From the NCBI GenBank assembly GCA_913061475.1, contig CAJXUN010000005.1, forward strand, positions 62,001-126,000: 64,000 nt of DNA. Reading direction: 5' to 3'. Each line of letters starts with the position of its first letter. The first letter of the stretch is position 1. Positions 1,636 to 61,830 of the stretch are shown here, piece by piece. The position numbers and the translations under genes were made by a program. This DNA comes from an uncultured Colwellia sp. Its GTDB lineage: Bacteria > Pseudomonadota > Gammaproteobacteria > Enterobacterales > Alteromonadaceae. The notes below the pieces were generated by a model. That model did not search any database and had not been told where the DNA came from. It saw only the letters and a list, made by a program, of their open reading frames with translations.

Positions 1636-3027
1636 CTATGGGCACCAAATAACTTTCAATGACATTTTATCTTTATCATCAAATAAGTAGCTAATTTCAA
1701 ATAGCTTGGCGATATATTTATTTGTCATTTTATAATCAGCATACTGATACCAATAATATAATTCAGCAATATCTTTTTTGTATCTCGCACTTAATTTTAA
1801 TGATTTTGTTGCTATTGCCTCGCCATTAATTTGAATGCTTTTATCTGTGCTTGCTATCGTAGAATAATATTCGCTACTAATAACCTCTTTATATGGTAAA
1901 ACATCATCGCCAGGCACAACAAAGTTATATGTCCTAGTTATTAAATGACATTTTTTATTAGCAACATCTTGTGATTCTATCGTTTCGGAGAAACTGCCGA
2001 ATGAAGACAGTAACTTTGAGCTATCGAGCACGTTAGTTGCCGGACTTTCAATAGTAACCGGTAAAGCGATAGATAATTTTTTAGCGGTGATTAGTGTCAT
2101 TAGTATCAAAACAGTTATAACAACGGCCATTTTAATTAACATCATTTTGTTGATAGATAACACTTTAAACTGTGTAAGCTTAGGTGACGCTTTCTCAAAA
2201 GAATAGCGCTTAGTTAAATAATTTAAGAGTAATATTACACCACTTATAACGATAAAAAACAGCACAAACCCGTAATTGTCATGCTCAGTCATCAGTGGAC
2301 TTTTCATCTCTGACCAATAGCCAATATAGATCAAGCCAAGTACTCTGATCCAGTTAGTAATAATACCAAGCGCAATACCCGTTATGATTACTAGTAGCTT
2401 TAATCGCCATGAAATATTTTCTCCATGCACAGCGTAAACCGCTAATGCGAAGCCAATTTCAAAATAGCGGATGCCAGAACAGCCTTCAGCGACGACGATG
2501 ACACCGAATGGGGTTTCAATGTAGTTATTATAAATAAAAACTGTTAGATCGCTAAAGCCTAGGAAAAATGTTACCGCCTGGGTGGTCAAGTCGACAAAGA
2601 AAGTATTGGAAAACTCCCAAAAAGGCACCGCGAATAGCAAAAAAAGTAAAGGAAAAGAGATGTGTTTTACATAATTAAAGCCCAATATATAGCATATTAT
2701 GGTTAACCATAAAAAATATAACCCAAATTGTTGAAAAATAAGGATATCTAAAAATAAAGACACTTCAATGAGAATGGATAATAAGATAACCACGAGCAGC
2801 AAGTAATGCCGGTTTTTATCTTTTTTATATGAGAAACTGCGAGATAATCTAAATATTTCAAAAATAACAATGGCAAATATTAAAAACCCATGCCCTAGTG
2901 ACTCATCAAATTTACTCCATTTATCAATGTAAGAGTTGGCCGTGGCAGGAAAAAAATAGCAGAGCACAAGTAAAAATATCAGTGTCGCACTAGGATATAG
3001 CAACTGCTTTAATGAGCTTAATGTCAT
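1636..3027 (-). CDS. xrtA: Exosortase (XrtA-like) with a short EpsI-like C-terminal part
   Basis: Multi-pass inner-membrane cysteine transpeptidase that recognises PEP-CTERM tails. About eight to nine hydrophobic segments fill residues 10-270. The exosortase signature is intact: Cys183 in EGCSGIRY, Arg228 in NWIRVLG and His249 in the TEHDNYG stretch. After a last membrane segment near 295-315, residues 320-463 form a periplasmic tail with a YYWYQ motif like the EpsI (DUF3485) partner usually found fused or adjacent in exosortase A systems; this version looks short for EpsI. The start lies 2 bases after the deacetylase stop, indicating translational coupling. The expected substrate in view is the PEP-CTERM protein at 6.7-7.5 kb. 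The exosortase call is strong; the XrtA subtype rests on the neighbouring deacetylase and TPR lipoprotein. Confidence 0.92.
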   Translation of the reverse strand: MTLSSLKQLLYPSATLIFLLVLCYFFPATANSYIDKWSKFDESLGHGFLIFAIVIFEIFRLSRSFSYKKDKNRHYLLLVVILLSILIEVSLFLDILIFQQFGLYFLWLTIICYILGFNYVKHISFPLLFLLFAVPFWEFSNTFFVDLTTQAVTFFLGFSDLTVFIYNNYIETPFGVIVVAEGCSGIRYFEIGFALAVYAVHGENISWRLKLLVIITGIALGIITNWIRVLGLIYIGYWSEMKSPLMTEHDNYGFVLFFIVISGVILLLNYLTKRYSFEKASPKLTQFKVLSINKMMLIKMAVVITVLILMTLITAKKLSIALPVTIESPATNVLDSSKLLSSFGSFSETIESQDVANKKCHLITRTYNFVVPGDDVLPYKEVISSEYYSTIASTDKSIQINGEAIATKSLKLSARYKKDIAELYYWYQYADYKMTNKYIAKLFEISYLFDDKDKMSLKVIWCP

Positions 3028-3029
3028 AT

Positions 3030-3917
3030 TTAAAATTTACCCGATGCGATATCTGTCCACTTGCCAAGCGTTGGATAGGTTTTTTCTAGGTGCACATTGG
3101 CTAAGGTATCAAATTGATATACCTGACAAAGCTTAGTTAATTTAGCGAGTGCGCCATGTTGGTTGACTCTATGACGGAAGTTTGATTTTGCATTACTTTT
3201 TATCTTGGGTTGCTTTGGATCATATTCCCAAGGATGGGTGTAAAAGTTAATATAGTCGAGTTGATTTTTCGACTTCTTAAGTATGCTATTAAATAAGAAG
3301 TAGGGTAATAACCTGAAATAACCACCACCGCCCGCAGGCACTATTTTGTTGCGATATTTCGCTGTAGATACCGGTATTTCTAACAAGCCGTTTTCAAGGA
3401 AGTAAGGCGTTCTTGGGGCATTAGGTACACCATATAAATCGTGCGCAATTGGATAGGTACTTGAGCTATAGAGATAACCCGCATTGTAAATTTCATCATG
3501 AGCCCATTCATTGTCGGCAGTAATTGAAAAACAAGGGGCTCTGTAACCATTGACAGGTGCTGCAGTTAAGTCCTCCAATAAGGACTTGGCATCTGTTATA
3601 TCGACCGAAAATGCTTTTTGTGTTTGCTTTGTAATGTGTTGATGATTAAAACCATGGCTGGCAATTTCATGTTTTTTATCTGCAATTAGTTTTACCAACT
3701 TAGGATGATTTTTAGCGATATATCCTAAAATAAAAAAAGTCGCTTTGACCTGTTTTTCTTCAAGTAAATCTAGCAACAACTGCATTTGGTATTCAATTCT
3801 ACTTGGATAATCTCCCCAAGTAGATGCCTTTATATTATTTGCAAATGCTTCAACCTGAAAGTACTCTTCAACATCAATGGTTAAAGAGTTATTTTCTTTA
3901 TTATTTATTTCTTGCAC
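3030..3917 (-). CDS. XrtA-system polysaccharide deacetylase (NodB fold plus DUF3473)
   Basis: A 295-residue carbohydrate esterase family 4 protein of the type found in exosortase A exopolysaccharide loci. Visible motifs are TIDVEEYFQVE near the N-terminus (catalytic Asp region), ATFFILG, the metal-binding SHGFNH (residues about 88-93), RAPCFS, and the late HPWEYD histidine motif. The C-terminal part (after about 200) matches the DUF3473 extension. No signal peptide is seen, so it probably acts on the cytoplasmic side or needs another route out. It likely removes acetyl groups from the locus exopolysaccharide or a precursor. It lies 18 bases after the TPR lipoprotein stop and 2 bases before the exosortase, in one operon. 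Confidence 0.92.
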   Translation of the reverse strand: MQEINNKENNSLTIDVEEYFQVEAFANNIKASTWGDYPSRIEYQMQLLLDLLEEKQVKATFFILGYIAKNHPKLVKLIADKKHEIASHGFNHQHITKQTQKAFSVDITDAKSLLEDLTAAPVNGYRAPCFSITADNEWAHDEIYNAGYLYSSSTYPIAHDLYGVPNAPRTPYFLENGLLEIPVSTAKYRNKIVPAGGGGYFRLLPYFLFNSILKKSKNQLDYINFYTHPWEYDPKQPKIKSNAKSNFRHRVNQHGALAKLTKLCQVYQFDTLANVHLEKTYPTLGKWTDIASGKF

Positions 3918-3935
3918 TAGATCAAAAACCTTAAA

Positions 3936-6539
3936 TTATTTATTTAACGCTTGTTTAATTTTATTGTCAGTATCTACAATAGCAGGGTGGTTAGGTGCTA
4001 TTTTTTTTGCTTGTTCAATGTACTTTTTAGCTTCAGTGAAGTCACCCGATTCATATAACAACCACGCAAAGTTGTTTAGCGCTATTAAATTTGTACTGTC
4101 ATAGGCAATTATTTCTTCGTACTGCGCCATAGCTTTATTTTTATCATGCTTGTTTAACTCATTCGCATAATAAATTCTATTTGCTTTATCATTCGGATTG
4201 TCTGCAAAATACTTTTCCATATCAGCCAATGCATCATCGACTTGATTAAGTTTTAATTTACTCTCAAAAATGAATGATATTAATTTTCCGTTTGCTGTTT
4301 TATTAAAGCTTTCAGTCAATAATGGTAGGGCTTTTACATATTGCTTCGAGAAATAGTACGCTTTACCTTTAATGCCTTGCACTATCGGATGTTGTTGTTG
4401 CTCCGCTGACAGCGATTCTATATATGAAATAGTCTCTAACGCTTTATTATCGAATAAATGAAAGTTGGCTAATATCAGGCCTATTTGAGTGTTATCAGGA
4501 TTAGCTTGTTTTAATTTTTCAAATGCCGCAACTGATGCTTTAATATTGCCTGATTTTTCCAATGCTAGCGCTAATCTTTCAATTAAGCGCTTATTCGGAG
4601 CCCCTTTGGCTAGCTGCTCTTCGTAAACATCTATTGCACGTTCATAAGTCTTATTTTGCATGTAAGCTTCAGCAATTAATAATTTCAACTTAGTGTCATG
4701 CTCTGGTGAATTAACACCTTGCAAGAGCTTAATCGCTTGCTCCGGCTGTTTTACAAGTAAATACGATTGCGCAAGCATCAGTCTTTCTTGCATGTTCTTT
4801 TCATAATTTGAGTATAGTTTTTCGAACTTGGGTAAGGCCTCTGATAACTTATTAAGTTTTTCTTGTGAAAGTAAATAGCCTTGCAATGCACTAAAGTTAA
4901 ATTTATTCACCTCAAGCACTTTATTGAATGCACTTAATGCTTTTTCAAAATTTTGATTGATAAAGCTATCTCTAGCAAAGTAAATATTTGCCAATTCATT
5001 ATTTGGCGCAAGGGCTAAAATATCGTTATATAACTTTATGATTTTGTTTTGGTCTATGTCGGCTTGTTTCTTTTCAATTTCTATTAGCAAAAATTTATTT
5101 TCTATGTCATTTGGGGATTTAATTGCCCAGGTATTGACATATTCCTCGGCTTTAGTGAGCTCTTTGTTTGCTACTAATGAAGAAATAAGTAACATTTTCA
5201 CTTTAGAAATTTCTTTTTTATCCGCTTGGTTTGCAATCAGTGTATTAAAAGATGCTTCAAGATCTTTAATGCCACTATTATCACCTGATGCCAATTTAAT
5301 TAAGCTAACACTATTCAGTATTTTTTGATTTTTAATCAAGCTAGTATCAATTTTTTGCAACAGCTCTGTGGTTTTTTCTGCTGCGCCTGTTTTGAGTAAC
5401 TCTAAACTTGCGAGCGCAAATAATTCTGAGTTTACTTCTGATGGAGTTGCTTGTGAGTATGCTTCACCTAAAGAGTCTGTATTGCCAAGTCGTAATTGAA
5501 GCGCAACGTATAATTTTGTGATTAGTGGATTATCTGGAAAGGCCAATTTTAAGCTTTGCAGGTTATATAAGGCTTGTTCATCATTGCCTAAGTGGTAATG
5601 AGCGATACTAGCGACTAATTTCGCTTGTGGGCTGGTCAGTCCGGAGTTCAGCGTAGAATTGATATGATTTAAAGCACTTTCAAAATTTTCTTTTTTCAAT
5701 TCGAGTGTTGCTGCAAGTAAGTTAACATATGGCTGGCTTGGATATAGCTTTAACAGTGCATTAACATATAACTCAGCCTTCTCATCATTTTCAGCTTTGA
5801 CATAGCTGTCTGCTAATTTCACCACCAGTAAGGTATGGTTAGGTTTTTTGCTTAAAATGCCTTCAAGTATTTCGGCGGCCTCACTAAATCTTTGTTCTGA
5901 AAATAATGCATTAGCGAGCAAGTTACAGACAATCCAGCGATCAGGGTAGCTCTCACAAGCTGTTGATAGCTCTTTGATTGTGGTCTTAATATCAGTAGGT
6001 TGTTTAAAACTGTTTGCGATGGCAGTATTTATTGTCACTAACTCAGGTATTGCTAGCTCTATAGCTTGCTCTTTTCCTGTTTGAGCAGTTTCAAAGCTTT
6101 CTTGGGTTTTAGTTTGGTTTAAATAAGCTAACGACACTACTGGCGCGAGTTTAGTTTGATTCTCTGGACTTAGTTGCAGTGATGCATCTTCCCAATAACG
6201 GGTAACGCCGACATAATCATCAAGCGCATATAGCGTATTTGTATAAAAATGTGCAACATTGTCATTAGTGACACCTAGCTCAATAGCCTTAGTGTATTCT
6301 TTTTCTGCATCCAGAAAGTTACCTAGTTGGTATTGACTATTTGCCATTAATAATCGAGCATTTTTATTTGCAGGTTCATCTCGGATTAAATTTTTAAGTT
6401 GAATGATAGCTGTATTATAGTTTTTGGCGTTATATTCCTGAGTTGCGTTATCGAGTTGTGCGTTAGGAGAGATTTTATTACAGCCTACAATAAAGAGTAG
6501 CCCGATAAAGATAGCAATACTTCCAGTAACGTTTTTCAT
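3936..6539 (-). CDS. prsT: PEP-CTERM system TPR-repeat lipoprotein (PrsT type)
   Basis: An 867-residue lipoprotein made almost entirely of tetratricopeptide repeats. The ATG at 6539 is chosen because it follows AAAGGG with good spacing and directly begins the lipoprotein signal (lipobox FIVGC); an upstream in-frame ATG at 6584 would put 15 charged residues before it. Repeats of the AxxLYxxGDFTEAKKY kind run to the last residues. PrsT family proteins accompany exosortase A and the deacetylase that follows here, and are thought to scaffold exopolysaccharide assembly or export in the periplasm. It is the first gene of the minus-strand operon prsT-deacetylase-exosortase-heparinase. The assignment rests on architecture and neighbours. 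Confidence 0.88.
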   Translation of the reverse strand: MKNVTGSIAIFIGLLFIVGCNKISPNAQLDNATQEYNAKNYNTAIIQLKNLIRDEPANKNARLLMANSQYQLGNFLDAEKEYTKAIELGVTNDNVAHFYTNTLYALDDYVGVTRYWEDASLQLSPENQTKLAPVVSLAYLNQTKTQESFETAQTGKEQAIELAIPELVTINTAIANSFKQPTDIKTTIKELSTACESYPDRWIVCNLLANALFSEQRFSEAAEILEGILSKKPNHTLLVVKLADSYVKAENDEKAELYVNALLKLYPSQPYVNLLAATLELKKENFESALNHINSTLNSGLTSPQAKLVASIAHYHLGNDEQALYNLQSLKLAFPDNPLITKLYVALQLRLGNTDSLGEAYSQATPSEVNSELFALASLELLKTGAAEKTTELLQKIDTSLIKNQKILNSVSLIKLASGDNSGIKDLEASFNTLIANQADKKEISKVKMLLISSLVANKELTKAEEYVNTWAIKSPNDIENKFLLIEIEKKQADIDQNKIIKLYNDILALAPNNELANIYFARDSFINQNFEKALSAFNKVLEVNKFNFSALQGYLLSQEKLNKLSEALPKFEKLYSNYEKNMQERLMLAQSYLLVKQPEQAIKLLQGVNSPEHDTKLKLLIAEAYMQNKTYERAIDVYEEQLAKGAPNKRLIERLALALEKSGNIKASVAAFEKLKQANPDNTQIGLILANFHLFDNKALETISYIESLSAEQQQHPIVQGIKGKAYYFSKQYVKALPLLTESFNKTANGKLISFIFESKLKLNQVDDALADMEKYFADNPNDKANRIYYANELNKHDKNKAMAQYEEIIAYDSTNLIALNNFAWLLYESGDFTEAKKYIEQAKKIAPNHPAIVDTDNKIKQALNK

Positions 6540-6608
6540 TTCAATCCCTTTAAAAAGATAAAGCCTAATGCGGATATAATACATGATTTTTATTAAACAA
6601 CCATAAAC

Positions 6609-6640
6609 AAAAAGCCAATTGATAGATCAATTGGCTTTTT
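6609..6640 (-). terminator. Strong stem-loop terminator after the PEP-CTERM gene
   Basis: A perfect 15-bp inverted repeat (AAAAAGCCAATTGAT and its complement, separated by two bases) lies between the PEP-CTERM gene and prsT. Read on the minus strand it ends in a T run, so it should end the PEP-CTERM transcript and separate it from the exosortase operon. Confidence 0.85.
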
Positions 6641-6676
6641 TATATTGCGGTGAAAACCCCGCTTAATTTAATGCTT

Positions 6677-7474
6677 TTATTTAGCTTTACGTTTTCTTGA
6701 AGAAGCTAAGCCTAAAAGACCAAGTCCTAAAATAGCAATAGAAGCTGGCTCTGGAACACGTGCTAGACGAGCAAATGTATAAACATTTGTATCAGCATTT
6801 TCAGGTGTCCAAAAACGGTTTGCTGTAATTGGGTTAGTACCCGCTAAATCAGTTGCTGCAAATACTGTTAAGTAGTAATCAAGACCGGCAATTGTTAATG
6901 GAATAACTACCGGGAATGAACCACCATCTACTGTATAGTCAAAGCGATCATCACAGTTAGTACCGTGTGCATGTTGATTTGCATCACCTGCAAAACTTTC
7001 GCCATTGTCAACAGATGCATCTAAGTTACAATAACCTAATGGTCCTGGTATATTTCGAGTTTCTTCGAAATCAATATCAAATTCTGTTGGTATTGTTAAT
7101 GCACCTGGTAGATTAGTTATTTCTAATGAACCGTTGATGACAGCGCTCTTTAACCAAGTGTTTTTATCGCCACCTTGAGCATCAATGTCATTATTCAAAT
7201 GCGTTAAGGTAGAAAGTAGATAGTTAGTATTTAGCAAATCAATATTTTGAGCCGCTTCATCTGTTAAACGTAAGCTACTTTGACCATCACCAGTCGAAAC
7301 ACCCCACGAAATCGATGAAACAGGTCCTACATCTGAGATTGCAATACCGTTACTGTTGCCATCTAAAGCAGTAGTAAAACCACCTGCGCCTTCAATTGTC
7401 AAAAATGAAGCGTTAGCCGCAAGTGACATTGTTGCTACTGCCAAACCGATTGAGAATTTTTTTATTAAGTTCAT
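6677..7474 (-). CDS. THxN-type PEP-CTERM secreted protein
   Basis: A 265-residue exported protein with a signal peptide (KKFSIGLAVATMSLAANA) and a complete PEP-CTERM sorting tail: VPEPAS, a hydrophobic helix ILGLGLLGLA, then SSRKRKAK. A THLNND segment followed by a GSLEITNLPG beta strand fits the THxN family of PEP-CTERM proteins. The start at 7474 is preferred over the ATG at 7498 because AAGGTG sits 7 bases upstream and it directly begins the signal peptide. Exosortase should cleave at the PEP motif and deliver the protein to the outer surface or exopolysaccharide. Its own function is unknown; two cysteines in the middle may form a disulfide. It has a separate sigma-54 promoter and a strong terminator, so it is a single-gene unit. 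Confidence 0.93.
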   Translation of the reverse strand: MNLIKKFSIGLAVATMSLAANASFLTIEGAGGFTTALDGNSNGIAISDVGPVSSISWGVSTGDGQSSLRLTDEAAQNIDLLNTNYLLSTLTHLNNDIDAQGGDKNTWLKSAVINGSLEITNLPGALTIPTEFDIDFEETRNIPGPLGYCNLDASVDNGESFAGDANQHAHGTNCDDRFDYTVDGGSFPVVIPLTIAGLDYYLTVFAATDLAGTNPITANRFWTPENADTNVYTFARLARVPEPASIAILGLGLLGLASSRKRKAK

Positions 7475-7533
7475 TGTTATCACCTTATTACTGTCCATGG
7501 TATTTGAGTTGTGCTTTTAATTGAATGTAATAA

Positions 7534-28263: not shown

Positions 28264-28809
28264 ATGAGCGCTAACGATAGCAATTTAATTTGGTTAGATT
28301 TAGAAATGACCGGCCTAGAGCCAAGTACGGATGTTATTTTAGAGATCGCCACGATCGTCACCGATAGCCAGTTGAATATTTTAGCGGAAGGACCGGTGTT
28401 TGCGATTCATCAAAGTGATGAAACACTAAATAATATGAGCCAATGGTGTATAGAACATCATGGACAATCGGGTTTAACACAAAGATGTCGCGAAAGTGTG
28501 ATCTCGTTAGGGCAAGCAAGTACTGAAAGCTTGGCATTTTTTCAGCAATACATTGCTAAAGGCAAGTCGCCGATGTGTGGTAATAGCATTGGGCAAGATA
28601 GACGCTTTATTAATAAGTACATGCCAGAGTTTGAAGATTATTTTCATTACCGTAATTTGGATGTAAGTACGGTGAAAGAGTTAGCGCGTCGCTGGAAACC
28701 AGAAGTTTTAGATAAAGTGGTAAAAACCGGCGCACATTTAGCGCTAGACGATATTCGTGAGTCTATCGCCGAGTTGAAAGTTTATCAGCAACATTTTTTT
28801 AAAATTTAG
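28264..28809 (+). CDS. orn: Oligoribonuclease
   Basis: A 181-residue DEDDh 3'-5' exoribonuclease degrading very short RNAs, including pGpG from c-di-GMP. Catalytic motifs are [21 protein letters not shown] and the [10 protein letters not shown] stretch with the catalytic His and last Asp. The gene is essential in E. coli. A terminator follows immediately. Confidence 0.97.
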
Positions 28810-28938: not shown

Positions 28939-29427
28939 ATGGCCAATCGTTTTAGTCGGATTGTTAATAACATTAAAAAGTTACCAAAAGGCACACATTC
29001 GTTTTTCTTAACGAAATTATTTTGCTCACAAGTGAAGTATGCCAGTACGTCTAAGGTTATTCTCGTTGATGTTAAGCAGACAGAAGTTAAGTTGCTGATG
29101 AAAAATAGCAAAAGAGTACAAAACCATATTGGCGGCGTTCATGCTATTGCCGCTGCATTATTGGCGGAATCAGCTACCGGTATTGTCTTTGGGATGAATT
29201 TACCAGATAGCGGTTTGCCGTTATTAAAGTCAATGACGATTAACTATCAGCGCCGTATGCAAGGCGATTTAACCGCTGTTGCAACTATCTCGGCTGAGCA
29301 GATTGCATTACTGACGCAAGAAAAAGGTAATATGGAGATTGCTGTTGTGATCACAGATGAATCAGGAGAGCAGCCAATCGAATGCTTAATGACATGGGCG
29401 TGGATAACAAAAAAATCGAAAAAATAA
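28939..29427 (+). CDS. Hotdog-fold thioesterase-like protein (DUF4442/YiiD C-terminal type)
   Basis: A 162-residue protein resembling the DUF4442 / YiiD C-terminal hotdog thioesterases: a central helix with NHIGGVHAIAAALLAES (helix after a His-Gly-Gly-like turn) followed by the strand INYQRRMQGDLTAVATIS. Such proteins hydrolyse acyl-CoA or acyl-ACP thioesters; the substrate is unknown. A plain single gene between orn and the large membrane protein. Family assignment is from fold-level resemblance. Confidence 0.75.
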   Translation: MANRFSRIVNNIKKLPKGTHSFFLTKLFCSQVKYASTSKVILVDVKQTEVKLLMKNSKRVQNHIGGVHAIAAALLAESATGIVFGMNLPDSGLPLLKSMTINYQRRMQGDLTAVATISAEQIALLTQEKGNMEIAVVITDESGEQPIECLMTWAWITKKSKK

Positions 29428-29701: not shown

Positions 29702-32700
29702 ATGGATTCAACACTGCCGCTATATCGACAGCTCGCAAGTCGATTTTTCATCTTAGCCTTGAGCTTTTTTTTACTTTGTTTTATGAGTTTTTCGCTGTAT
29801 TTTCAACATGAAGAAGATATTGCTGCGCTGAAATATCAACAATTACCTGCGATAGAAAAGTATGCTCAACGACAATTACTTTTGATTAAAAACGATCGTT
29901 TACTAAGTGAAATTATTAGTAGCAAGTATGCCGGGCAATTTAGTGATTATCATCAAGTACTTAATGAAAACTTACAAAGCATTTCAGGGTTAAGTCGCAA
30001 TAACAGACGCTTGTTAGAACAATTAGCACAGCGCTTGCAAATGCAAACTGAAAATATCATGCGTTTGAGCGAAAGTGACCGCCGAAATATTCAACTCAAA
30101 GATAATGTCATTATCCAATTGACCATAGTGGCAGATAGTTTATCGGATTTAATCACCAGACAAACGAATCAACAAAAAGATTTATATCGTCAACTCACTC
30201 AAGACAATTTAACTGACCGAGTTACTGCGACTCGCGCTAAGGCGTTAAGTAATTTAGTCAATAACATTAATCGCAATCGTGAATTATACCAAGCTCTCAT
30301 TGACACCTTAGTGATGTTTAATCAGCTTGATTTACAATATGACTTAATAAATTTTGACTATATACAACAGAAAATCCACCAAGAGATAAATCATTGGCTA
30401 GCCGAAGGCGCCAATATGGCGGACAACAATATTGAAGAGAATGGGCTATTTGAACAAGTTAGTGTGTTAAACGCTTTACTTTTTAGTGAGCAAAATACCT
30501 TCGCGAAATGGCGCGGTCAACTTCGTAGAGTCAATGATTTTCAAGCTGAACTCATCAATCAAAAAACTGAACTGTTACCCTTGCTTGATAAGAAACTTGT
30601 CATTCGGCCATTGCAGTCTTCGGCAGTTGAACAGCAGATCATCCACTGGTTAGCTAAAGCCAATATTTCATTACAAGCTAAAGACACCCTCTGGTTTATT
30701 TTGGTTTTCTTTGTGCTACTGGTTATTGTTTTTATCAGTGTGTTGGTTAGTATTCAGCGAAAAATAAAGTCCTTTGGTGTCCAAAGTGCAGCAGTAATTG
30801 AAGAGCTAGTGACACAAGGTGAAATTGCTTCAGTGGTGCCCGGTCTTGAAATAACGACCATAATTAATAGTATCAATCAGCTGGCTCGACCTGAGCACAG
30901 TGAAGCTGACTTTAAAGCGCAGCAACAGCATTATCAAATACATGCTAAAGCTATGTCGCGCCATAGTGGTTTTGTTTTTTGGCAAATGCCAGTGGCGTCG
31001 ATACAAAAGCAACAACTGCAGCGCTTATTGGGTGGCGATAGCCATAATCAACATTGGCGTCATTGTTTTAATCGAAGCGATGTACATGCAATTTTATCAC
31101 TCGCACGCAAAGCTAAAAAGCAGAGTAGTGTAGAAAAAATTTCTTTAATAACTCATCAACAAAAGGCTGTTGCTCTTACGGTTGAGTATATTGATGGTGT
31201 TTGGTGCGGCAGCCTATCAAGTGCTGAAGAATATCGGGCACTAAACGATGAAAATATACAGTTGCAGCAACAGCTTAAGCAGCAAAGTCAAGCAGATAAA
31301 TTGGCTGTTATTACTCATAGTGAAAGCACTATTGCTTTAGCCAGCGCTGCTATGCAGCAGCGACAATTGCTGTCGTTAGCGGCGGGCGATGAAGATGTGG
31401 CATATCAACATATACGACAGCTGTTCTGTTGGGGGGAGCAACAAAAAATTAGCGCGCAATTACGCCGAGATGATTTTATTTTATCCTTATCAACGGTAAA
31501 TTTTGCCAATGAAATGCATACAGCATTGCTTAATATCAGCCTAGAACAAGCGCCGAACAATAATTTTATTTATCTTAATCTTGCAAACAATTTAACGGCC
31601 TTTGTGACACTGGAAAGTGAGCTGTTTCAAGCTATGATTACAACCACATGTCAAAGGATGTTGGCTGCGCAGCGTAATGTGGAACTTAGCATAGATGTTC
31701 AGGTTATTGATGTTAATAGTGCTCAGCAAATTGTCCGTATCAGTTTTAAACTTAGTAACCCAGTATCGAGCAAAAAATTATCTCAAACCATTAATCGATT
31801 AGTGATTGATGATGAAAACAGCACGGTTTGTGATAGCACTAGTCATCAATTTTTACGAGATTTACAGTTAGTTTTTAATGTCAGTAACAAAGAAGCTCAG
31901 CAATTAGATAAAGCGGGTAAATTCTCTTTTGACTTGCCGTTAACTATTGCTGAAGACAGTGATAAATCGAGTAAAGAAAACCCGGTTAAATTAGCGAAAT
32001 GTTGTATTTTAGTGATTGCAACAAACAAGGCTAGTCGTCAACGAATTTGCCAACAGTTTAGTAATAGCAAAGTGACAGTTGAAACAATGCAAGACTTGTC
32101 ATTATTCCAACGACAAATAAGTATTAAACACCTGACGAAAAACCGCTTAGATGTCGTTGTTTTGTCACCAGAAGTATATTTTTCAGATTATGATTTGATC
32201 AGCCAGCACCTGGCTAGTTTACCTGCTAAGCTCCAGCCTAAAATATTAGTTATTCAACCGTTTTACAGTGCTGGATTATCAAGAAAAGGATTATTCTCTG
32301 CAAATAATTTTCCTTGGTTTACTAGTGCGTTAGTTGAAAACTTGGCTGTACTTAAAAATAAAACACATAAAACCAATATATTAGTCGAACCGGAAGTTTT
32401 TTTACCGTATAAGTTTTTGCCTACTCAGGTTGAAGTTTTACTCGCTGTCGAAATGGTAAGTAAATACCAAAGCTTAATCCAAGTATTGCAGTGGCTTGGA
32501 CTGAAAGTTACGGTGGTTTCCCAACAAGAACGCCTTGAAAGCTTGTGGCAATCAGCGCGTTACACCGTGGTAATTACAGAGTTTTTGCCGTTTAAGGCCA
32601 AGTTAAAAACAGCGATAAACTGTCTGCGTGGTGTTTTTTCTCTGAACGAAGATAACACCAAACAAGACTTTTTTAGTCAATTAGAGTTACCAAAAGCATG

Positions 32701-33316
32701 GCATAATGGCCGTTTAGCGTCGGCGCTGGACATCGAACAGCTAACGCAACAACTATTGCCTTGGTTAAAGGTAGATAAGAGCATTTGCGAGAACAAAGTC
32801 GAGCCAGTTTCAAAGTCGCAGTGCGGTAAGGCAAGTGAGCATGAAACTGCTAAAGTAAGCTCTGTGTCTGATGATGCAGACTTTGCTGCTGGCATGGAGA
32901 TAATCGATATTGAGCAATCGCTAGATTTTACGCTAAACCTTGCGCAAACCAATGATTCGGCAGTTGAGGCTTTTGATCTGGTTAATTATGCCAGTAATCA
33001 AGGTTCTGCTGAGTTAGCAGCCTTTATGTTAGACGAATATATGACGGATATCATTGCCAGCACGCGCGCATTGGATGACGCGTTGCAACAACAAGACTAT
33101 CATTTGGCTATACAATTGCTAAAGTCATTGATAGCAACGGTAAGCGTTATTTCTGCTGCACCTTTCTTAGCGGCATGCCGACAATTAAGTCAGCTGTTAA
33201 GCGAGCAAGATGCCAATGGCGCTTTTTCGATAGCGCAAAAAGAACAATTGCAACAACAGCTAAATCATCTCAAACTATGTCTAGAGCAGTTAACTGATTT
33301 TGCAGAATCGATATGA
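29702..33316 (+). CDS. BarA-like hybrid kinase with all phosphotransfer sites degenerate
   Basis: A 1204-residue inner-membrane protein. Helix 1 is at about 12-33, a helical periplasmic sensor covers 35-325, helix 2 is 330-350. A coiled coil and a HATPase-like region (about 595-750) follow; the N box and G boxes are absent and no H box precedes it. Two receiver-like domains follow (about 765-885 and 893-1010) in which the acceptor aspartate positions appear to be Ser822 and Thr959 and the acidic pocket is lost. The Hpt-like C-terminus (about 1110-1204) has Gln1138 where the phosphohistidine belongs (QLLKS instead of HxLKG). It therefore looks like a hybrid kinase that kept its shape and lost its chemistry, probably working as a scaffold or sensor. 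The DUF1289 gene overlaps its end by 4 bases. Confidence 0.75.
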   Translation: MDSTLPLYRQLASRFFILALSFFLLCFMSFSLYFQHEEDIAALKYQQLPAIEKYAQRQLLLIKNDRLLSEIISSKYAGQFSDYHQVLNENLQSISGLSRNNRRLLEQLAQRLQMQTENIMRLSESDRRNIQLKDNVIIQLTIVADSLSDLITRQTNQQKDLYRQLTQDNLTDRVTATRAKALSNLVNNINRNRELYQALIDTLVMFNQLDLQYDLINFDYIQQKIHQEINHWLAEGANMADNNIEENGLFEQVSVLNALLFSEQNTFAKWRGQLRRVNDFQAELINQKTELLPLLDKKLVIRPLQSSAVEQQIIHWLAKANISLQAKDTLWFILVFFVLLVIVFISVLVSIQRKIKSFGVQSAAVIEELVTQGEIASVVPGLEITTIINSINQLARPEHSEADFKAQQQHYQIHAKAMSRHSGFVFWQMPVASIQKQQLQRLLGGDSHNQHWRHCFNRSDVHAILSLARKAKKQSSVEKISLITHQQKAVALTVEYIDGVWCGSLSSAEEYRALNDENIQLQQQLKQQSQADKLAVITHSESTIALASAAMQQRQLLSLAAGDEDVAYQHIRQLFCWGEQQKISAQLRRDDFILSLSTVNFANEMHTALLNISLEQAPNNNFIYLNLANNLTAFVTLESELFQAMITTTCQRMLAAQRNVELSIDVQVIDVNSAQQIVRISFKLSNPVSSKKLSQTINRLVIDDENSTVCDSTSHQFLRDLQLVFNVSNKEAQQLDKAGKFSFDLPLTIAEDSDKSSKENPVKLAKCCILVIATNKASRQRICQQFSNSKVTVETMQDLSLFQRQISIKHLTKNRLDVVVLSPEVYFSDYDLISQHLASLPAKLQPKILVIQPFYSAGLSRKGLFSANNFPWFTSALVENLAVLKNKTHKTNILVEPEVFLPYKFLPTQVEVLLAVEMVSKYQSLIQVLQWLGLKVTVVSQQERLESLWQSARYTVVITEFLPFKAKLKTAINCLRGVFSLNEDNTKQDFFSQLELPKAWHNGRLASALDIEQLTQQLLPWLKVDKSICENKVEPVSKSQCGKASEHETAKVSSVSDDADFAAGMEIIDIEQSLDFTLNLAQTNDSAVEAFDLVNYASNQGSAELAAFMLDEYMTDIIASTRALDDALQQQDYHLAIQLLKSLIATVSVISAAPFLAACRQLSQLLSEQDANGAFSIAQKEQLQQQLNHLKLCLEQLTDFAESI

Positions 33317-33519
33317 GTGTTAAATACCAGCAACCAATAAGCAATGTGGAAGATATTGCCAGCCCTTGTGTGCGTAATTGTTGCTTAAATGAAGTCGACA
33401 TTTGCCTAGGCTGTTTTCGTCATATAGATGAAATTATGGCATGGCGACAACTTGACGATACTGGGAAGCGGGCAGTACTTGCCCAATGCCAGGAACGTAA
33501 GCAACAGCTAGGGATATAG
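33313..33519 (+). CDS. DUF1289 small cysteine-motif protein
   Basis: A 68-residue protein with the DUF1289 pattern: SPCVRNCCLNEVDICLGCFR and a following WRQLDD. Four to five cysteines suggest metal or Fe-S binding. Its ATG overlaps the stop of the preceding pseudo-kinase gene (ATGA), so the two are translationally coupled. Function of the family is unknown. Confidence 0.88.
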   Translation: MSVKYQQPISNVEDIASPCVRNCCLNEVDICLGCFRHIDEIMAWRQLDDTGKRAVLAQCQERKQQLGI

Positions 33520-33550: not shown

Positions 33551-35191
33551 ATGGAAGATGTTGACAAAAATACCTTAGCACAACTAGACGAACTCAATGT
33601 CTTGATTATTGATGATAATCTTTTAGTGCATAGCGTTTTAAAGGAAAGCCTGTTTGCGCTTGGTATTAAGCAAATACGTTGCGCACAAAACTCCTACTAC
33701 GGACTTAGGTTATGCGATGAAATGCACTTTCATATCATTATTTGTGCATTTAACGTTAAAAGTGATAAAGATGGTTTTCATCTTTTAGAAGAACTTAAAT
33801 TTAAAGGCCATGTCACTAAAACCACGGTATTAATTTTTCTAAGCACAGAAACAAATGAGTCATTAGTTAACTCCATTATTGAGTTGCAACCTGATGATTT
33901 TTGGACAAAACCCCTAGCAATAAATAAAGTTAGAACTCGTTTTGTCGCGACATTAAAGGCCAAGCAAGTGCTGTTTAATATTAATAGTGCAATCGATAAA
34001 AAAGCCTATGCTAAAGCTATTTATTTCGCTGACCGACATCTTCAAAATGAGAAACTCGCACACTACTACCCAAATATTAACCGTATTAAAGGTGAGTCAT
34101 ACCTCGCCTTGCTTGAATTTGAAGAGGCAGAACGTTTTTATCAGCAATTGTTAAAAACATACCAATATTCTTGGGTTTATTTAGGCTATGCAAAAGCCTT
34201 GTTAAAACAAGGTCGTTTAGATGAAATTAGCGATATGTTAAAAACCTTAATTGGAAAGCCCGAAACGCGTTTTGGTGCTCACGACATGATGGCTCAGTAC
34301 TTCATTGAGCAAGAACAATACTTGCAAGCTTATGAAGAAATCAAAAAAGCGATGGCGCTGTCGCCAAGAAATATTGAACGTAATAAAAAGTCATGGGATT
34401 TAGCCCGGTTAAATCATGATCATAAAGGGCAATATTTTGCGACGCGAAATATTGCCCAACAAGCAAAAAATTCTATCCATGATTCCCCTGAACTTATACT
34501 CAATGTTATTAGAGCAGGCATTGATTTAGTTTGCGCAACGCCAGATGAAAGTGCTAACGCGATATTGCAACAGACCGATCGTTATATTAGTCAATTAGAG
34601 CGTGATCGTGACGATGCTAACTTTTTTAAACAGCAATTGTTGGTGGTAAAAGCTCGATTACACAATGTTCGCAACGAACGTGATAAAGCAACCAGGTTGG
34701 TTGAAAATCATATGTCACTTAAGCCAAGCACGGTCGTAGAAGATAATTTAGATCGCGTTAAAGTTTTACATGAGTTAGGCATGCGCGAAGATGCCCTTCA
34801 ATTGCTTGAAGCCATTAAAAACCAAATAGCCGGTGATTCGCTGAATAGCGAAGTTGTCAGGCGTTATATTGCACAAGAAAGCCAACAGCGAGAAGAAATA
34901 CATTTTACTGCTAAAGAGCTCAACACTATGGCTGTTGAGCATTTTCAGAAAAATCGATTATTACCAGCGCTTGACGCTATTGAACAGGCATTAAAACTGA
35001 GTCCCGATAATATAAAGTTATTGTTTAGCCAGTTAAAGATTTTGATAAAAATTAAGCAAGAAAACCAGGAAACTCAAGCCAATATGACGTTGGCTAATGA
35101 AATCATTGGTCAGCTTGGTCAGCTTGAACTTGAAAGCAAAAATTCAACAGCTTTTGAAGAGTTAGCGCTAAAATGGCAACAGGTAAATTAG
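33551..35191 (+). CDS. TPR response regulator with atypical receiver
   Basis: A 546-residue cytoplasmic protein: receiver-like domain (about 14-125) and a TPR-rich remainder (about 140-540) ending with an ALKLSPDN-type repeat. The receiver keeps the acidic pair Asp21-Asp22, Ser98/Thr99 and Lys120, but the acceptor position reads CAFN (residues 65-68), so the aspartate is missing. TPR domains indicate output by protein contact rather than DNA binding. It lies 31 bases after the DUF1289 gene and likely belongs to the same transcript as the degenerate kinase. Related receiver-TPR proteins occur in Vibrio and Shewanella; no specific function can be assigned. Confidence 0.85.
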   Translation: MEDVDKNTLAQLDELNVLIIDDNLLVHSVLKESLFALGIKQIRCAQNSYYGLRLCDEMHFHIIICAFNVKSDKDGFHLLEELKFKGHVTKTTVLIFLSTETNESLVNSIIELQPDDFWTKPLAINKVRTRFVATLKAKQVLFNINSAIDKKAYAKAIYFADRHLQNEKLAHYYPNINRIKGESYLALLEFEEAERFYQQLLKTYQYSWVYLGYAKALLKQGRLDEISDMLKTLIGKPETRFGAHDMMAQYFIEQEQYLQAYEEIKKAMALSPRNIERNKKSWDLARLNHDHKGQYFATRNIAQQAKNSIHDSPELILNVIRAGIDLVCATPDESANAILQQTDRYISQLERDRDDANFFKQQLLVVKARLHNVRNERDKATRLVENHMSLKPSTVVEDNLDRVKVLHELGMREDALQLLEAIKNQIAGDSLNSEVVRRYIAQESQQREEIHFTAKELNTMAVEHFQKNRLLPALDAIEQALKLSPDNIKLLFSQLKILIKIKQENQETQANMTLANEIIGQLGQLELESKNSTAFEELALKWQQVN

Positions 35192-35224: not shown

Positions 35225-36370
35225 CTATGCATCACGCGGCATCCCTTTTTCAACAGAGCGAATTAAGCGCGCGGTTAAACGTAAATTTTTATCTGTATTC
35301 AATGCTTGTTGTTTTAATGTTTGCTGAGCTAATGCCCATTCAATATGTTCGGCAACCATAGGCTCTGCTTTCGTTAGCTTTTGGGTTAACGCCTCGACAT
35401 TATGTTTGGAAAAATCAGCATTGCCGAGTGCCACGGCAATATTACGTTGCCAACATTGGAAGCCAATTCGGCGAATAGGCGAGCCTTCGGTTTTATTTAA
35501 AAATTTAGCTTCATCCCAAGAAAATAAAGTCAGCAAAGCAATATTATCTAAGTTTTGTCTAGGTTTAAAATCATCTTCGCTACCAAGAGTTGCAAATTTA
35601 TTCCATGGACAAATCAGTTGGCAGTCATCACAGCCATAAATTCTATTGCCAATTAATGGCCGAAATTCTAACGGGATGGCATCACGCAGTTCTATTGTTA
35701 GGTACGAAATACAACGTCTAGCGTCAACAACGTAAGGTTCTACAATTGCCTGTGTTGGACAAATTTTTATACAAGCAACGCAAGTACCGCAATCGTTTTC
35801 TGGTTTAGTATCAGGTATTAAAGGTAAATCAACGAGTAGTTCTCCGAGAAAAAACCATGAGCCAGCTTGTTTGTTAATCAGCAAGGAGTGTTTACCTACC
35901 CAACCTAAGCCTGCTTTTTCTGCGAGCGGTCTTTCAAGTATTGGCGCGGAATCCACAAAAGGGCGATAATTAAAGTGTTCACAATGTGCTTTAATATTCT
36001 CACCCAGTTGTTTCAGGCGTTTACGCATTAATTTGTGATAATCTCGGCCTAAGGCATAGCGACTGATATAGGCATGATCTTTATTTTTTAAAATTGTGGC
36101 AAATTTTGCATCGGTAGGTAAGTAGTCCATACGAACACTAATAACATTAAGTGTACCTGCTACTAACTCTCGTGCTCGTGCTCGCATTAAACCATGGCGC
36201 GCCATATAATCCATGTTGCCGTGATAATCATTCTCTAACCAATGAGTTAGTGCTGCTTCGTGCTCGGACAGATCAATATCGCTGATACCGACTTGTGAAA
36301 AACCAAGTTCTAGACCCCAAAGCTTGATTTGTTTGGTTAATTCTTGATAGTTAATAGTGGCTTTAGTCAT
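35225..36370 (-). CDS. queG: Epoxyqueuosine reductase
   Basis: A 381-residue cobalamin and [4Fe-4S] enzyme performing the last step of queuosine tRNA modification. Both ferredoxin-type cluster motifs are present: CGTCVACIKICP and CDDCQLICPW; the N-terminal domain has DYHGNMDYMARH and the SWFFLGELL stretch. The ATG at 36370 is chosen since it gives the usual family length; an upstream in-frame ATG at 36427 would add 19 residues reaching into nnr. Divergent from nnr with only 17 bases between starts. Confidence 0.96.
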   Translation of the reverse strand: MTKATINYQELTKQIKLWGLELGFSQVGISDIDLSEHEAALTHWLENDYHGNMDYMARHGLMRARARELVAGTLNVISVRMDYLPTDAKFATILKNKDHAYISRYALGRDYHKLMRKRLKQLGENIKAHCEHFNYRPFVDSAPILERPLAEKAGLGWVGKHSLLINKQAGSWFFLGELLVDLPLIPDTKPENDCGTCVACIKICPTQAIVEPYVVDARRCISYLTIELRDAIPLEFRPLIGNRIYGCDDCQLICPWNKFATLGSEDDFKPRQNLDNIALLTLFSWDEAKFLNKTEGSPIRRIGFQCWQRNIAVALGNADFSKHNVEALTQKLTKAEPMVAEHIEWALAQQTLKQQALNTDKNLRLTARLIRSVEKGMPRDA

Positions 36371-36387
36371 GGCTGCTGAATATTTAA

Positions 36388-37914
36388 ATGATAATGGTGG
36401 TATTGCAAGTGTCGACAAGTTTAACACATCATGTTTATAAGGTTAATCAACTGCAGCGCTACGAAGCCGATGCAGCGCAAGTTATCGGCATTAGCTTGTG
36501 GGCGTTGATGCAACGAGCAGGAGCCGCTGTTTTTCAGCAGATACTAGATAAATTCCCTGATGCGCGCGAGCTAAAAATTATTTGTGGTAAAGGCAATAAT
36601 GGCGGCGATGGCTATATTATTGCGGCATTAGCGCATCAAGCGGGTTTGTCGGTAACGGTTGTTGTCAATGGAACGCGGGCATCAATTGTTGGTAATGCTC
36701 AACAAGCACTTAATCAACTTGACGAGTTACAGGTAAATGTTACTTTTTTTCAGGATGTTGAATTAATTCAGCAGGCTATTAAACGTTTTCGTGGAGATCT
36801 ACTCGTTGATTGTTTATTTGGTATTGGTTTCAACGGGTCTTTATCTCCGTCATATGTGCAATTAATAACAGAGATCAACAATACGTTATGTCCTCGGGTA
36901 TCTGTTGATGTACCTTCCGGGCTTAATGCTGATTTAGGTACGGTATCGACAGTAGCGGTCGAAGCCACGTTGACGGTAACATTAATTGCCTATAAACAAG
37001 GTTTATTAAGCGGACAAGCAGCGAATTATGTCGGCAATCTACAACTGGAAACATTAGGTACTAATCAAGCATTAGCTCAGTTAACTAAAGCAGTTGTTTT
37101 TTTTCAAAATGCGCAAAATCTACCGGTAGTAATAAAACGTCAACCTTGTAGTCATAAAGGCCATGTTGGACTGTTATTAGCGGTAGGTGGCAACCATGCT
37201 TATACTGGCGCAATTTGTTTAGCAGCCGAAGCCGCCTTGCGTTCCGGTGCCTCTCTGGTTAGTGTTTGTTGTCATGAAATGTCTAGAACAACCTTATTGA
37301 CCCGACGACCTGAGTTGATGATAGCGGCGAATTCAGCAAAAGCCTTGAGCCGCTCTTCAACGATAGAGAAAGCCAAAAGTATTATACTTGGACCTGGTTT
37401 AGGGCAAGATAGTTGGTCGTTAGCTTTATTTGATTTTGTGATGCAATTGCCGCAGCCTAAAATTATTGATGCTGATGCCCTAAGGTTGCTGGCCAAAAAA
37501 CCAATAAAAAATAACCAATGGGTATTAACTCCTCATCCGGGAGAAGCAGCAGATCTACTTGCTTGTTCGATCGCTGAGATCGAAGCGGACCGTTTTTCAG
37601 CCGTGAAAAAAATTGCTCTCCAATATGGTGGTGTATGCGTGCTTAAAGGCGCGGGTACATTGATATCTAATGGGAAAATCACTTGGGTTAACAGTACCGG
37701 TAATCCGGGAATGGCAAGTGGTGGTATGGGGGATGTACTCAGTGGTATCATTGGTGCGCTAATTTTACAAACAAGTGATATATTGAGTGCTGCACGCTTA
37801 GGTGTCTATATTCATGGCCTTGCAGCTGATATTATTACTCAAAAATACGGTCAAATAGGTTTGTTGGCGAGTGATTTATCGCCCGAAATTCAACGGCTAA
37901 TTAACCAATGGTAA
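36388..37914 (+). CDS. nnr: Bifunctional NAD(P)H-hydrate epimerase / ADP-dependent dehydratase
   Basis: A 508-residue fusion that repairs hydrated NADH and NADPH. N-terminal YjeF epimerase (about 15-225): GKGNNGGDGYIIAALA and VDCLFGIGFNG. C-terminal ribokinase-like dehydratase (about 235-505): GHVGLLLAVGG, GPGLGQDS, LTPHPGEAADLL and NPGMASGGMGDVLSG. Several start codons are possible (36388, 36394, GTG 36409); no ribosome site decides among them. First gene of the long nnr-to-purA run, E. coli order. Confidence 0.96.
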   Translation: MIMVVLQVSTSLTHHVYKVNQLQRYEADAAQVIGISLWALMQRAGAAVFQQILDKFPDARELKIICGKGNNGGDGYIIAALAHQAGLSVTVVVNGTRASIVGNAQQALNQLDELQVNVTFFQDVELIQQAIKRFRGDLLVDCLFGIGFNGSLSPSYVQLITEINNTLCPRVSVDVPSGLNADLGTVSTVAVEATLTVTLIAYKQGLLSGQAANYVGNLQLETLGTNQALAQLTKAVVFFQNAQNLPVVIKRQPCSHKGHVGLLLAVGGNHAYTGAICLAAEAALRSGASLVSVCCHEMSRTTLLTRRPELMIAANSAKALSRSSTIEKAKSIILGPGLGQDSWSLALFDFVMQLPQPKIIDADALRLLAKKPIKNNQWVLTPHPGEAADLLACSIAEIEADRFSAVKKIALQYGGVCVLKGAGTLISNGKITWVNSTGNPGMASGGMGDVLSGIIGALILQTSDILSAARLGVYIHGLAADIITQKYGQIGLLASDLSPEIQRLINQW

Positions 37915-61443: not shown

Positions 61444-61760
61444 CCATCGACGTACAAGGATGTACTAATGCCGTGAAGGCAGTGATGCCTAAGAATGGTC
61501 ATGGCTGTCATCGATTAACGGCGCTAAAAAATTAATATTTCAACGCTGAGATGGGAATTAACGATCGTTAAACGTCCGTGAAAGTAAATCGCTCGAAAGG
61601 GTTACGGAAGATAAGCGATCACTCTGATCTGCTTGGGTAAAATGCTGAATAAAATATTAATGTTCAGCTATTGCTGGCAGGACGCCAGCAAAGCGAAGTA
61701 GCACATGGATGTGCGTTCTGAGCGTTAGCTCGATACATTATTATTTTATGAAGAATACAT
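61436..61760. other. Structure-rich intergenic DNA
   Basis: Part of the 764-base gap 61153-61916, which has no supported gene. It contains GTACAAGGATGTAC, CAGCCAT with a distant ATGGCTG, the hairpin TTGCTGGC-AGGAC-GCCAGCAA (61671-61691) and the palindrome GCACATGGATGTGC (61701-61714). Such stacks of short inverted repeats resemble repetitive intergenic elements of marine Alteromonadales; no coding frame or promoter stands out. Confidence 0.5.
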
Positions 61761-61776
61761 TTTTCAGCAGCGCCGA

Positions 61777-61830
61777 GGGAGTCCAGAGGGAGGTCGGCGT
61801 CAGCCTCCCTTTGGGTGTAGTCGCCACGGC
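61777..61830 (-). repeat. Inverted partial copy D of the intergenic repeat family
   Basis: Read on the minus strand it contains GGCGACTACACCCAAAGGG, then a GACGCC element, CTCTGGACTCCC, matching the central part of copies B and C in opposite orientation, with small differences. Confidence 0.65.

Follow-up and report, generated by a model that had tools for sequence, protein, structure and literature searches.

A conserved membrane-bound pseudo-hybrid kinase of Colwellia and its relatives appears to keep phosphorelay folds without phosphotransfer residues

Can the folds of a phosphorelay be conserved once the residues that handle phosphate have gone? The question is raised by a 64,000-nucleotide stretch from an uncultured Colwellia sp. 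(GenBank assembly GCA_913061475.1, contig CAJXUN010000005.1, positions 62,001 to 126,000 of the forward strand; hereafter the window), in which a single open reading frame (ORF) with an ATG start and orthologues in related genomes (29702–33316, + strand, as are all features below unless stated) encodes a protein of 1,204 residues. A first-pass annotation, made from the letters alone, had described this protein as a BarA-shaped hybrid kinase that has lost every phosphotransfer residue and is selected for its scaffold. Pseudo-receivers and pseudo-histidine kinases are already known; passages of one review report acceptor sites to be missing, among the domains sampled, from 2.0% of receivers and from 0.9% each of HisKA and Hpt, and call the switching of bacterial pseudo-receivers a mystery (PMC12632262). 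Here, we propose that the protein is probably a conserved transmembrane scaffold derived from a tripartite hybrid histidine kinase, in which phosphate would no longer be used and the output would lie in the Hpt bundle.

Neither Pfam (E up to 1) nor NCBIfam finds a kinase, receiver or Hpt domain in the 1,204-residue protein, so the identity of its domains rests on structure and profile comparison; phmmer against PDB sequences also gives no match. Weak Pfam hits were dismissed, among them TPR_BSK1_C at residues 1092–1184 (20.8 bits, cut-off 42.2), where the model shows an Hpt fold. Across 36 proteins scanned with Pfam at E up to 0.5, Hpt is listed for eight and Response_reg for three, and among the individually inspected tables the cut-offs are passed only by L066, the closest intact kinase found by profile. 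Two AlphaFold models, built on 16 sequences each, cover residues 379–1204 (predicted local distance difference test, pLDDT, 76.1; predicted template modelling score, pTM, 0.61) and residues 1–560 (pLDDT 82.2, pTM 0.50). In order, the predicted parts are a first transmembrane helix (TM1; residues 15–33, 29744–29800, by hydropathy), an all-helical TorS/HBM-like periplasmic sensor (residues 36–325, 29807–30676, by model and fold search), a second transmembrane helix (TM2; residues 333–351, 30698–30754, by hydropathy), a PAS-like alpha/beta segment named from the secondary structure predicted in the two models only (residues 434–507, 31001–31222), a DHp and CA-like region in which the N and G1 boxes are missing (residues 508–760, 31223–31981, from GacS, RetS and ShkA structural matches and profile mapping) and, by structure and profile, pseudo-receiver 1 (residues 766–888, 31997–32365), a degenerate receiver 2 (residues 908–1025, 32423–32776) and an Hpt domain lacking its histidine (residues 1087–1204, 32960–33313). 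A third stretch over the same crude hydropathy threshold, residues 1135–1153, falls in the Hpt region.

The fold matches follow this order. Residues 497–750 resemble the DHp-CA part of GacS (VIA Z 17.6, root-mean-square deviation (rmsd) 4.8, 252 aligned), residues 531–1021 resemble ShkA (Z 13.6, rmsd 5.0, 368 aligned; Foldseek rank 1, E 1.7e-10) and residues ~1087–1204 resemble the Hpt domains of a Shewanella hybrid kinase (3myf, Z 15.8), HptB (Z 14.6) and E. coli BarA (3iqt, Z 14.1); RetS and DivL are also among the structural matches. For residues 48–305 the best matches are TorS sensor domains (Foldseek ranks 1–5, E 8e-5 to 1e-3; VIA Z 14.8) and Foldseek ranks 1–11 are all TorS, PilJ or McpS, with a VIA Z that lies within or just above the helical-bundle background, given that the unrelated helical protein CdvB scores 13.8, about 1 lower, on a shorter stretch. 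At the profile level, 46 full-length relatives are colinear with 21 intact kinases of the L066 type (probability 99.1, E 1.6e-18) and with 28 BarA sequences (probability 97.1, E 6.9e-11). The latter match rests on the 28-sequence set, because as single sequences E. coli BarA and the BarA match of this genome reach probabilities of only 0.5 and 2.1; as a single sequence L066 reaches 96.8, probabilities of 87.5 and 78.5 are found for two more kinases of this genome, and E. coli TorS has a very weak 7.6. For TorS, ArcB and RcsD the comparison used single sequences throughout, which is not a fair ranking against the BarA and L066 sets. Structure prediction and fold matches agree with the tripartite order first suggested (two transmembrane helices, periplasmic helical sensor, kinase-like part, two receivers, Hpt), and the DHp-CA-pseudoREC-REC-Hpt order and folds of the BarA/GacS type are present in the models.

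The protein resembles BarA only from the DHp onward, the sensor looking TorS/HBM-like, and the single match of this genome to E. coli BarA at E<=1e-100 is a different gene (C2:141180-143930; 42% identity, E 1.4e-225). The genome has 45 HATPase_c matches, without the present gene among them, and seven Hpt matches. On these comparisons the name pseudo-hybrid kinase suits the protein, and BarA does not. It shares order, folds and a colinear profile match with the GacS/BarA tripartite hybrid kinases, but its sensor looks TorS/HBM-like and the catalytic residues of the N and G1 boxes, the receiver and the Hpt are lost. TorS provides the top structural match of the sensor, but its chemistry is lost here, and no torT is evident among the listed neighbours, although no dedicated torT search was made. 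In L066, by contrast, HisKA, HATPase_c, receiver and Hpt are all over the Pfam cut-offs, and its gene lies at a different locus; we know of no published name for this type of hybrid kinase. L066 (4637–7405) and L185–L204 make up a family of BarA-shaped hybrid kinases that is distinct from L174, the BarA match of the same genome.

Which catalytic residues, then, remain? Positions were mapped by hhalign to the 28 BarA and 21 L066-type sequences and counted over the 46 full-length relatives (45 distinct). The two alignments, where each of them places a residue, are in agreement for the N box, G1, the receiver Asp, Thr and Lys and the Hpt His, and they differ by one residue at the receiver acidic pair. 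The N-box Asn position is Arg652 and the G1 Asp position is Leu684, with Asn and Asp in 0/46, and the G2 Gly position is a gap. Two of the residues named in the first-pass annotation need correction: the Hpt His position is Lys1141 (codon 33122–33124; His in 0/46), three residues from the proposed Gln1138, and the receiver-2 acceptor position is Glu960 (codon 32579–32581), one residue from the proposed Thr959. Across the 46 sequences this acceptor is Glu in 38, Asp in six, Asn in one and Gln in one. The receiver Thr position is Asn982 (Thr or Ser in 21/46, in a loose alignment), the Lys position is Ser1007 (Lys in 3/46), and at most half of the receiver-2 acidic pair is kept. Part of a review describes Asp-to-Glu at the acceptor site as typical of plant pseudo-response regulators (PMC12632262). 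Ser822 does fit the receiver-1 acceptor position, where L066 has Asp, but it is no loss specific to this gene, because E. coli BarA already has Gly there. GacS/BarA kinases are described as carrying pseudo-receivers between CA and receiver (PMC7010744), and receiver 1 is a pseudo-receiver by inheritance. The H box belongs to the DHp, whose alignment is uncertain: His302 of BarA falls on Ser548 (His in 1/46), the L066 His falls on a gap, and His539, H-box-like by eye, occurs in only 3/17 genomes of the genus. In sum, a catalytic residue is missing at every station that could be aligned.

The alignment of orthologues proposed by the first-pass annotation is uniform for N, G1 and the Hpt His, which are never present, but not for receiver 2. 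The six sequences with Asp960 (L052, L053, L068, L070, L072 and L083) are where residual or unconventional phosphosignalling might be sought, either through receiver 2 in these lineages or through another residue served by another kinase. L053 and L083 also retain the acidic pair in strand 1 and L068 has Lys at 1007, but none of the six unites acidic pair, Asp and Lys; with the Hpt His missing throughout and Glu the prevailing acceptor residue, we consider such signalling improbable.

Known pseudo-kinases such as DivL and RcsD lose part of the catalytic set. RcsD is a membrane hybrid with a degenerate kinase core and a pseudo-receiver in which a working Hpt His is kept, the residue that is lost here; no profile similarity to RcsD was detected with RcsD as a single sequence. 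DivL, termed a catalytically inactive pseudohistidine kinase in a passage of one paper (PMC12189002), and RetS have a kinase fold that works without normal phosphotransfer, as is proposed for the present protein, but here the receiver and Hpt stations are gone too. ShkA matches the DHp-CA-pseudoREC-REC fold but is active as a kinase, and its pseudo-receiver is described as binding cyclic diguanosine monophosphate (PMC7010744, in part). In the open-licence PMC literature we found no paper on this family, or on any other whose kinase, receiver and Hpt are all dead. The joint loss of the stations, together with relatives reduced to a sensor and a dead Hpt and a neighbouring receiver without its Asp (both below), offers a natural series for phosphorelay folds without phosphate.

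A gene that has lost so much could simply be decaying, the alternative that the first-pass annotation itself had named. The gene is found in 20 among 40 relatives, 17/17 genomes of the genus (own included) among them, without internal stops. A wider family search matched 88/295 genomes; in G295 the only match is the active kinase L066, and without this genome 87 remain, in 19/52 genera. Colwellia, Cognaticolwellia, Pseudocolwellia and Thalassotalea are among the named hosts. The locus is also kept. Its conserved flanks, which we take to be orn upstream (28264–28809) and queG downstream (35225–36427, − strand), occur, one or both, in the same stretch in 44/44 distinct fetched loci, and both in 31; a DUF4442 protein (28939–29427) is a frequent upstream neighbour. 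Ratios of nonsynonymous to synonymous substitution (dN/dS; NG86 estimates for the three closest pairs, dS 0.16–0.37) are 0.275, 0.266 and 0.247 for the whole gene, and by domain 0.15–0.20 for DHp and CA, 0.23–0.28 for Hpt and 0.30–0.42 for receiver 2. Decay could be read from the fast divergence and from the lineages in which the PAS-like segment, receiver 1 or the core is undetected, but it is refuted by the retained frames and a dN/dS well under 1, and with the locus kept as well we give it almost no credence. Selection for the scaffold without standard chemistry, as first suggested, is supported by these results and by the N, G1 and Hpt His counts above.

We also looked for an intact ancestor at the corresponding position. 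In 20 orn regions (9–10 kb, several rearranged), all taken from genomes that lack a family member, the A1 and A2 profiles match no ORF; of the larger ORFs there, the two scanned with Pfam encode a CHASE-GGDEF-EAL protein and a sulfotransferase-TPR protein. A sensor search beyond the family matched 43/147 genomes, and the sole matches outside the family (G068 and G081) were rejected, being GGDEF and GGDEF-EAL proteins.

If the scaffold is what is selected, which part of it carries the output? Receiver 2 and Hpt are the best-conserved domains, with mean identities to the target of 0.34 and 0.29 as compared with 0.17–0.23 for the other six (n = 29 relatives outside the genus). We scanned 36 sequences (35 family members, one of them a duplicate, and L066) with sub-profiles of the domains. 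Sensor, DHp-CA, both receivers and Hpt are found together in 23; receiver 1 is undetected in six (L057–L060, L074 and L075), L068 has no recognisable sensor and the PAS-like segment is not detected in several relatives. Five relatives, from the three genera g28, g56 and g68, are short (L051, L063, L064, L065 and L082; 525–592 residues). In these, DHp, CA and both receivers are undetected, and the protein consists of a transmembrane helix, a helical part, a second transmembrane helix and the His-less Hpt, at the same locus; the sensor is strongly similar in L063 and weakly similar in L051, L064 and L082, and in L065 no similarity is detected. The Hpt sub-profile is the only part detected in all 35/35 family members. 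Most of the conserved Hpt positions are in the first helix (FDLxxYAxNQGSxELAxFMLDEY; Phe1091, Asp1092, Tyr1096, Gln1100, Gly1101, Glu1104, Ala1106, Met1109 and Tyr1113), and not at the position of the lost His. It is mainly on these two grounds, detection throughout the family and conservation in the first helix, that we place the output in the Hpt bundle.

The core of the short relatives was presumably lost rather than gained, because the core is homologous to active kinases. In a tree of locus neighbours the core-less L051 and L064/L065 sit apart, which suggests at least two core losses, with low deep support. The tree leaves out L042, L044, L046, L047, L049, L050, L066 and L076, and its 700-residue threshold excludes further loci, including L063 and L082.

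These short relatives also bear on a modulator role, akin to the titration of a true phosphorelay raised by the first-pass annotation, in which the dead DHp-CA-receiver-Hpt stack would heterodimerise with or sequester an active hybrid kinase, for example the BarA of the same genome, by analogy with RetS and DivL. Such a role would suit the DHp-CA sub-profile matches in 30/36 sequences, the presence of GacS, RetS and DivL among the structural matches, and a BarA match at E<=1e-100 in 30/30 genomes searched (seven cover only part of BarA). However, in three genera the gene sits at this locus with its core undetectable, which argues against heterodimerisation of kinase cores as a universal role, and the BarA match is also found in the six searched genomes without the gene (partial in 3/6). 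We regard the modulator role as rather unlikely.

Under the scaffold reading that we prefer, the TorS/HBM-like helical periplasmic domain would sense a ligand or a protein, and the signal would travel by way of TM2, then the PAS-like segment and the DHp-like coiled coil, as arranged in the models, to reach the stack of catalytically dead domains. As output, the His-less Hpt four-helix bundle at the C terminus would bind a protein, as its conservation and the core-less relatives in three genera suggest, and the receiver 2 bearing Glu960 may assist it in most lineages. Candidate partners are the receiver-TPR protein and the DUF1289 protein encoded next to the kinase gene, or an active hybrid kinase.

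Several points weigh against this reading. The dN/dS of the gene exceeds that of five neighbour genes (0.008–0.209) in all three pairs, reaches 0.42–0.50 in the TM2-PAS part and 1.22 in one short linker estimate, and in ten loci of the genus the protein has only 43–62% identity to that of the window, compared with 76–95% for RsgA, Orn, QueG and the receiver-TPR protein. Selective constraint on the pseudo-hybrid kinase is real but looser than on its neighbours. Furthermore, the DHp alignment is uncertain, a non-standard phosphosite is conceivable, Asp960 is kept in the 6/46 sequences discussed above (in L068 together with Lys at 1007), the locus tree supports core loss only weakly, and the binding partners named for the Hpt are candidates.

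What do the downstream neighbours add? A DUF1289 gene (68 residues, 33313–33519) follows directly, its start codon overlapping the stop codon of the kinase gene (ATGA, 33313–33316). This overlap is found in the window and in 10/10 other genus loci, and co-transcription of the two genes is likely on this arrangement; sigma-70 promoter-like sites are at chance level (20 found, 19.0 expected). More widely, a DUF1289 gene follows the kinase gene in 30 of 46 locus entries, by a motif search that reached 700 bases and with three genomes represented twice.

Next comes the receiver-TPR protein (546 residues, 33551–35191), which has Ala66 at the acceptor position (codon 33746–33748) and keeps the DD pair and the Lys. 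The first-pass annotation had suggested that the dead kinase could signal by contact to this adjacent TPR protein, and in favour of a phosphate-free pair of that kind, all 17 distinct adjacent copies, window included, have Ala (12) or Ser (5) at the acceptor position. Contact is possible, but it cannot be general, as the gene is in the locus in the window and 16/44 distinct genomes and missing from the other 28/44, of which some were fetched as short stretches. Linkage of the kinase gene to DUF1289 is more frequent. To place the neighbour in its family, a receiver-TPR search matched 105/247 genomes, and one match each was read from 29 (L208–L236). Another 13 distinct relatives at other loci have Ala (8) or Ser (5; L209, a repeat of L078, not counted), giving Ala or Ser in 30/30 distinct near relatives, window included, compared with Asp in 15/15 distant homologues. 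Because the near relatives at other loci also have Ala or Ser, the Asp-less receiver-TPR proteins form a family of their own, and the dead kinase is missing from all six such regions read at other loci. We therefore doubt that the pair explains the family. A broader version, for which we would make a tentative case at most, is a complete phosphate-free 'two-component' module, in which kinase and receiver-TPR protein both lack phosphoacceptors, the DUF1289 gene with its overlapping start links them and a periplasmic signal would pass by allosteric contact alone, through the His-less Hpt, with some genera reduced to a one-protein receptor of sensor and dead Hpt.

Two further features of the window lie away from this locus. 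A TwoAYGGAY RNA (RF01731) at 61621–61778 scores 50.1 bits against a gathering score of 43, and 1636–7498 on the − strand encodes exosortase-like, PrsT-like TPR and PEP-CTERM-like proteins, recognised by eye.

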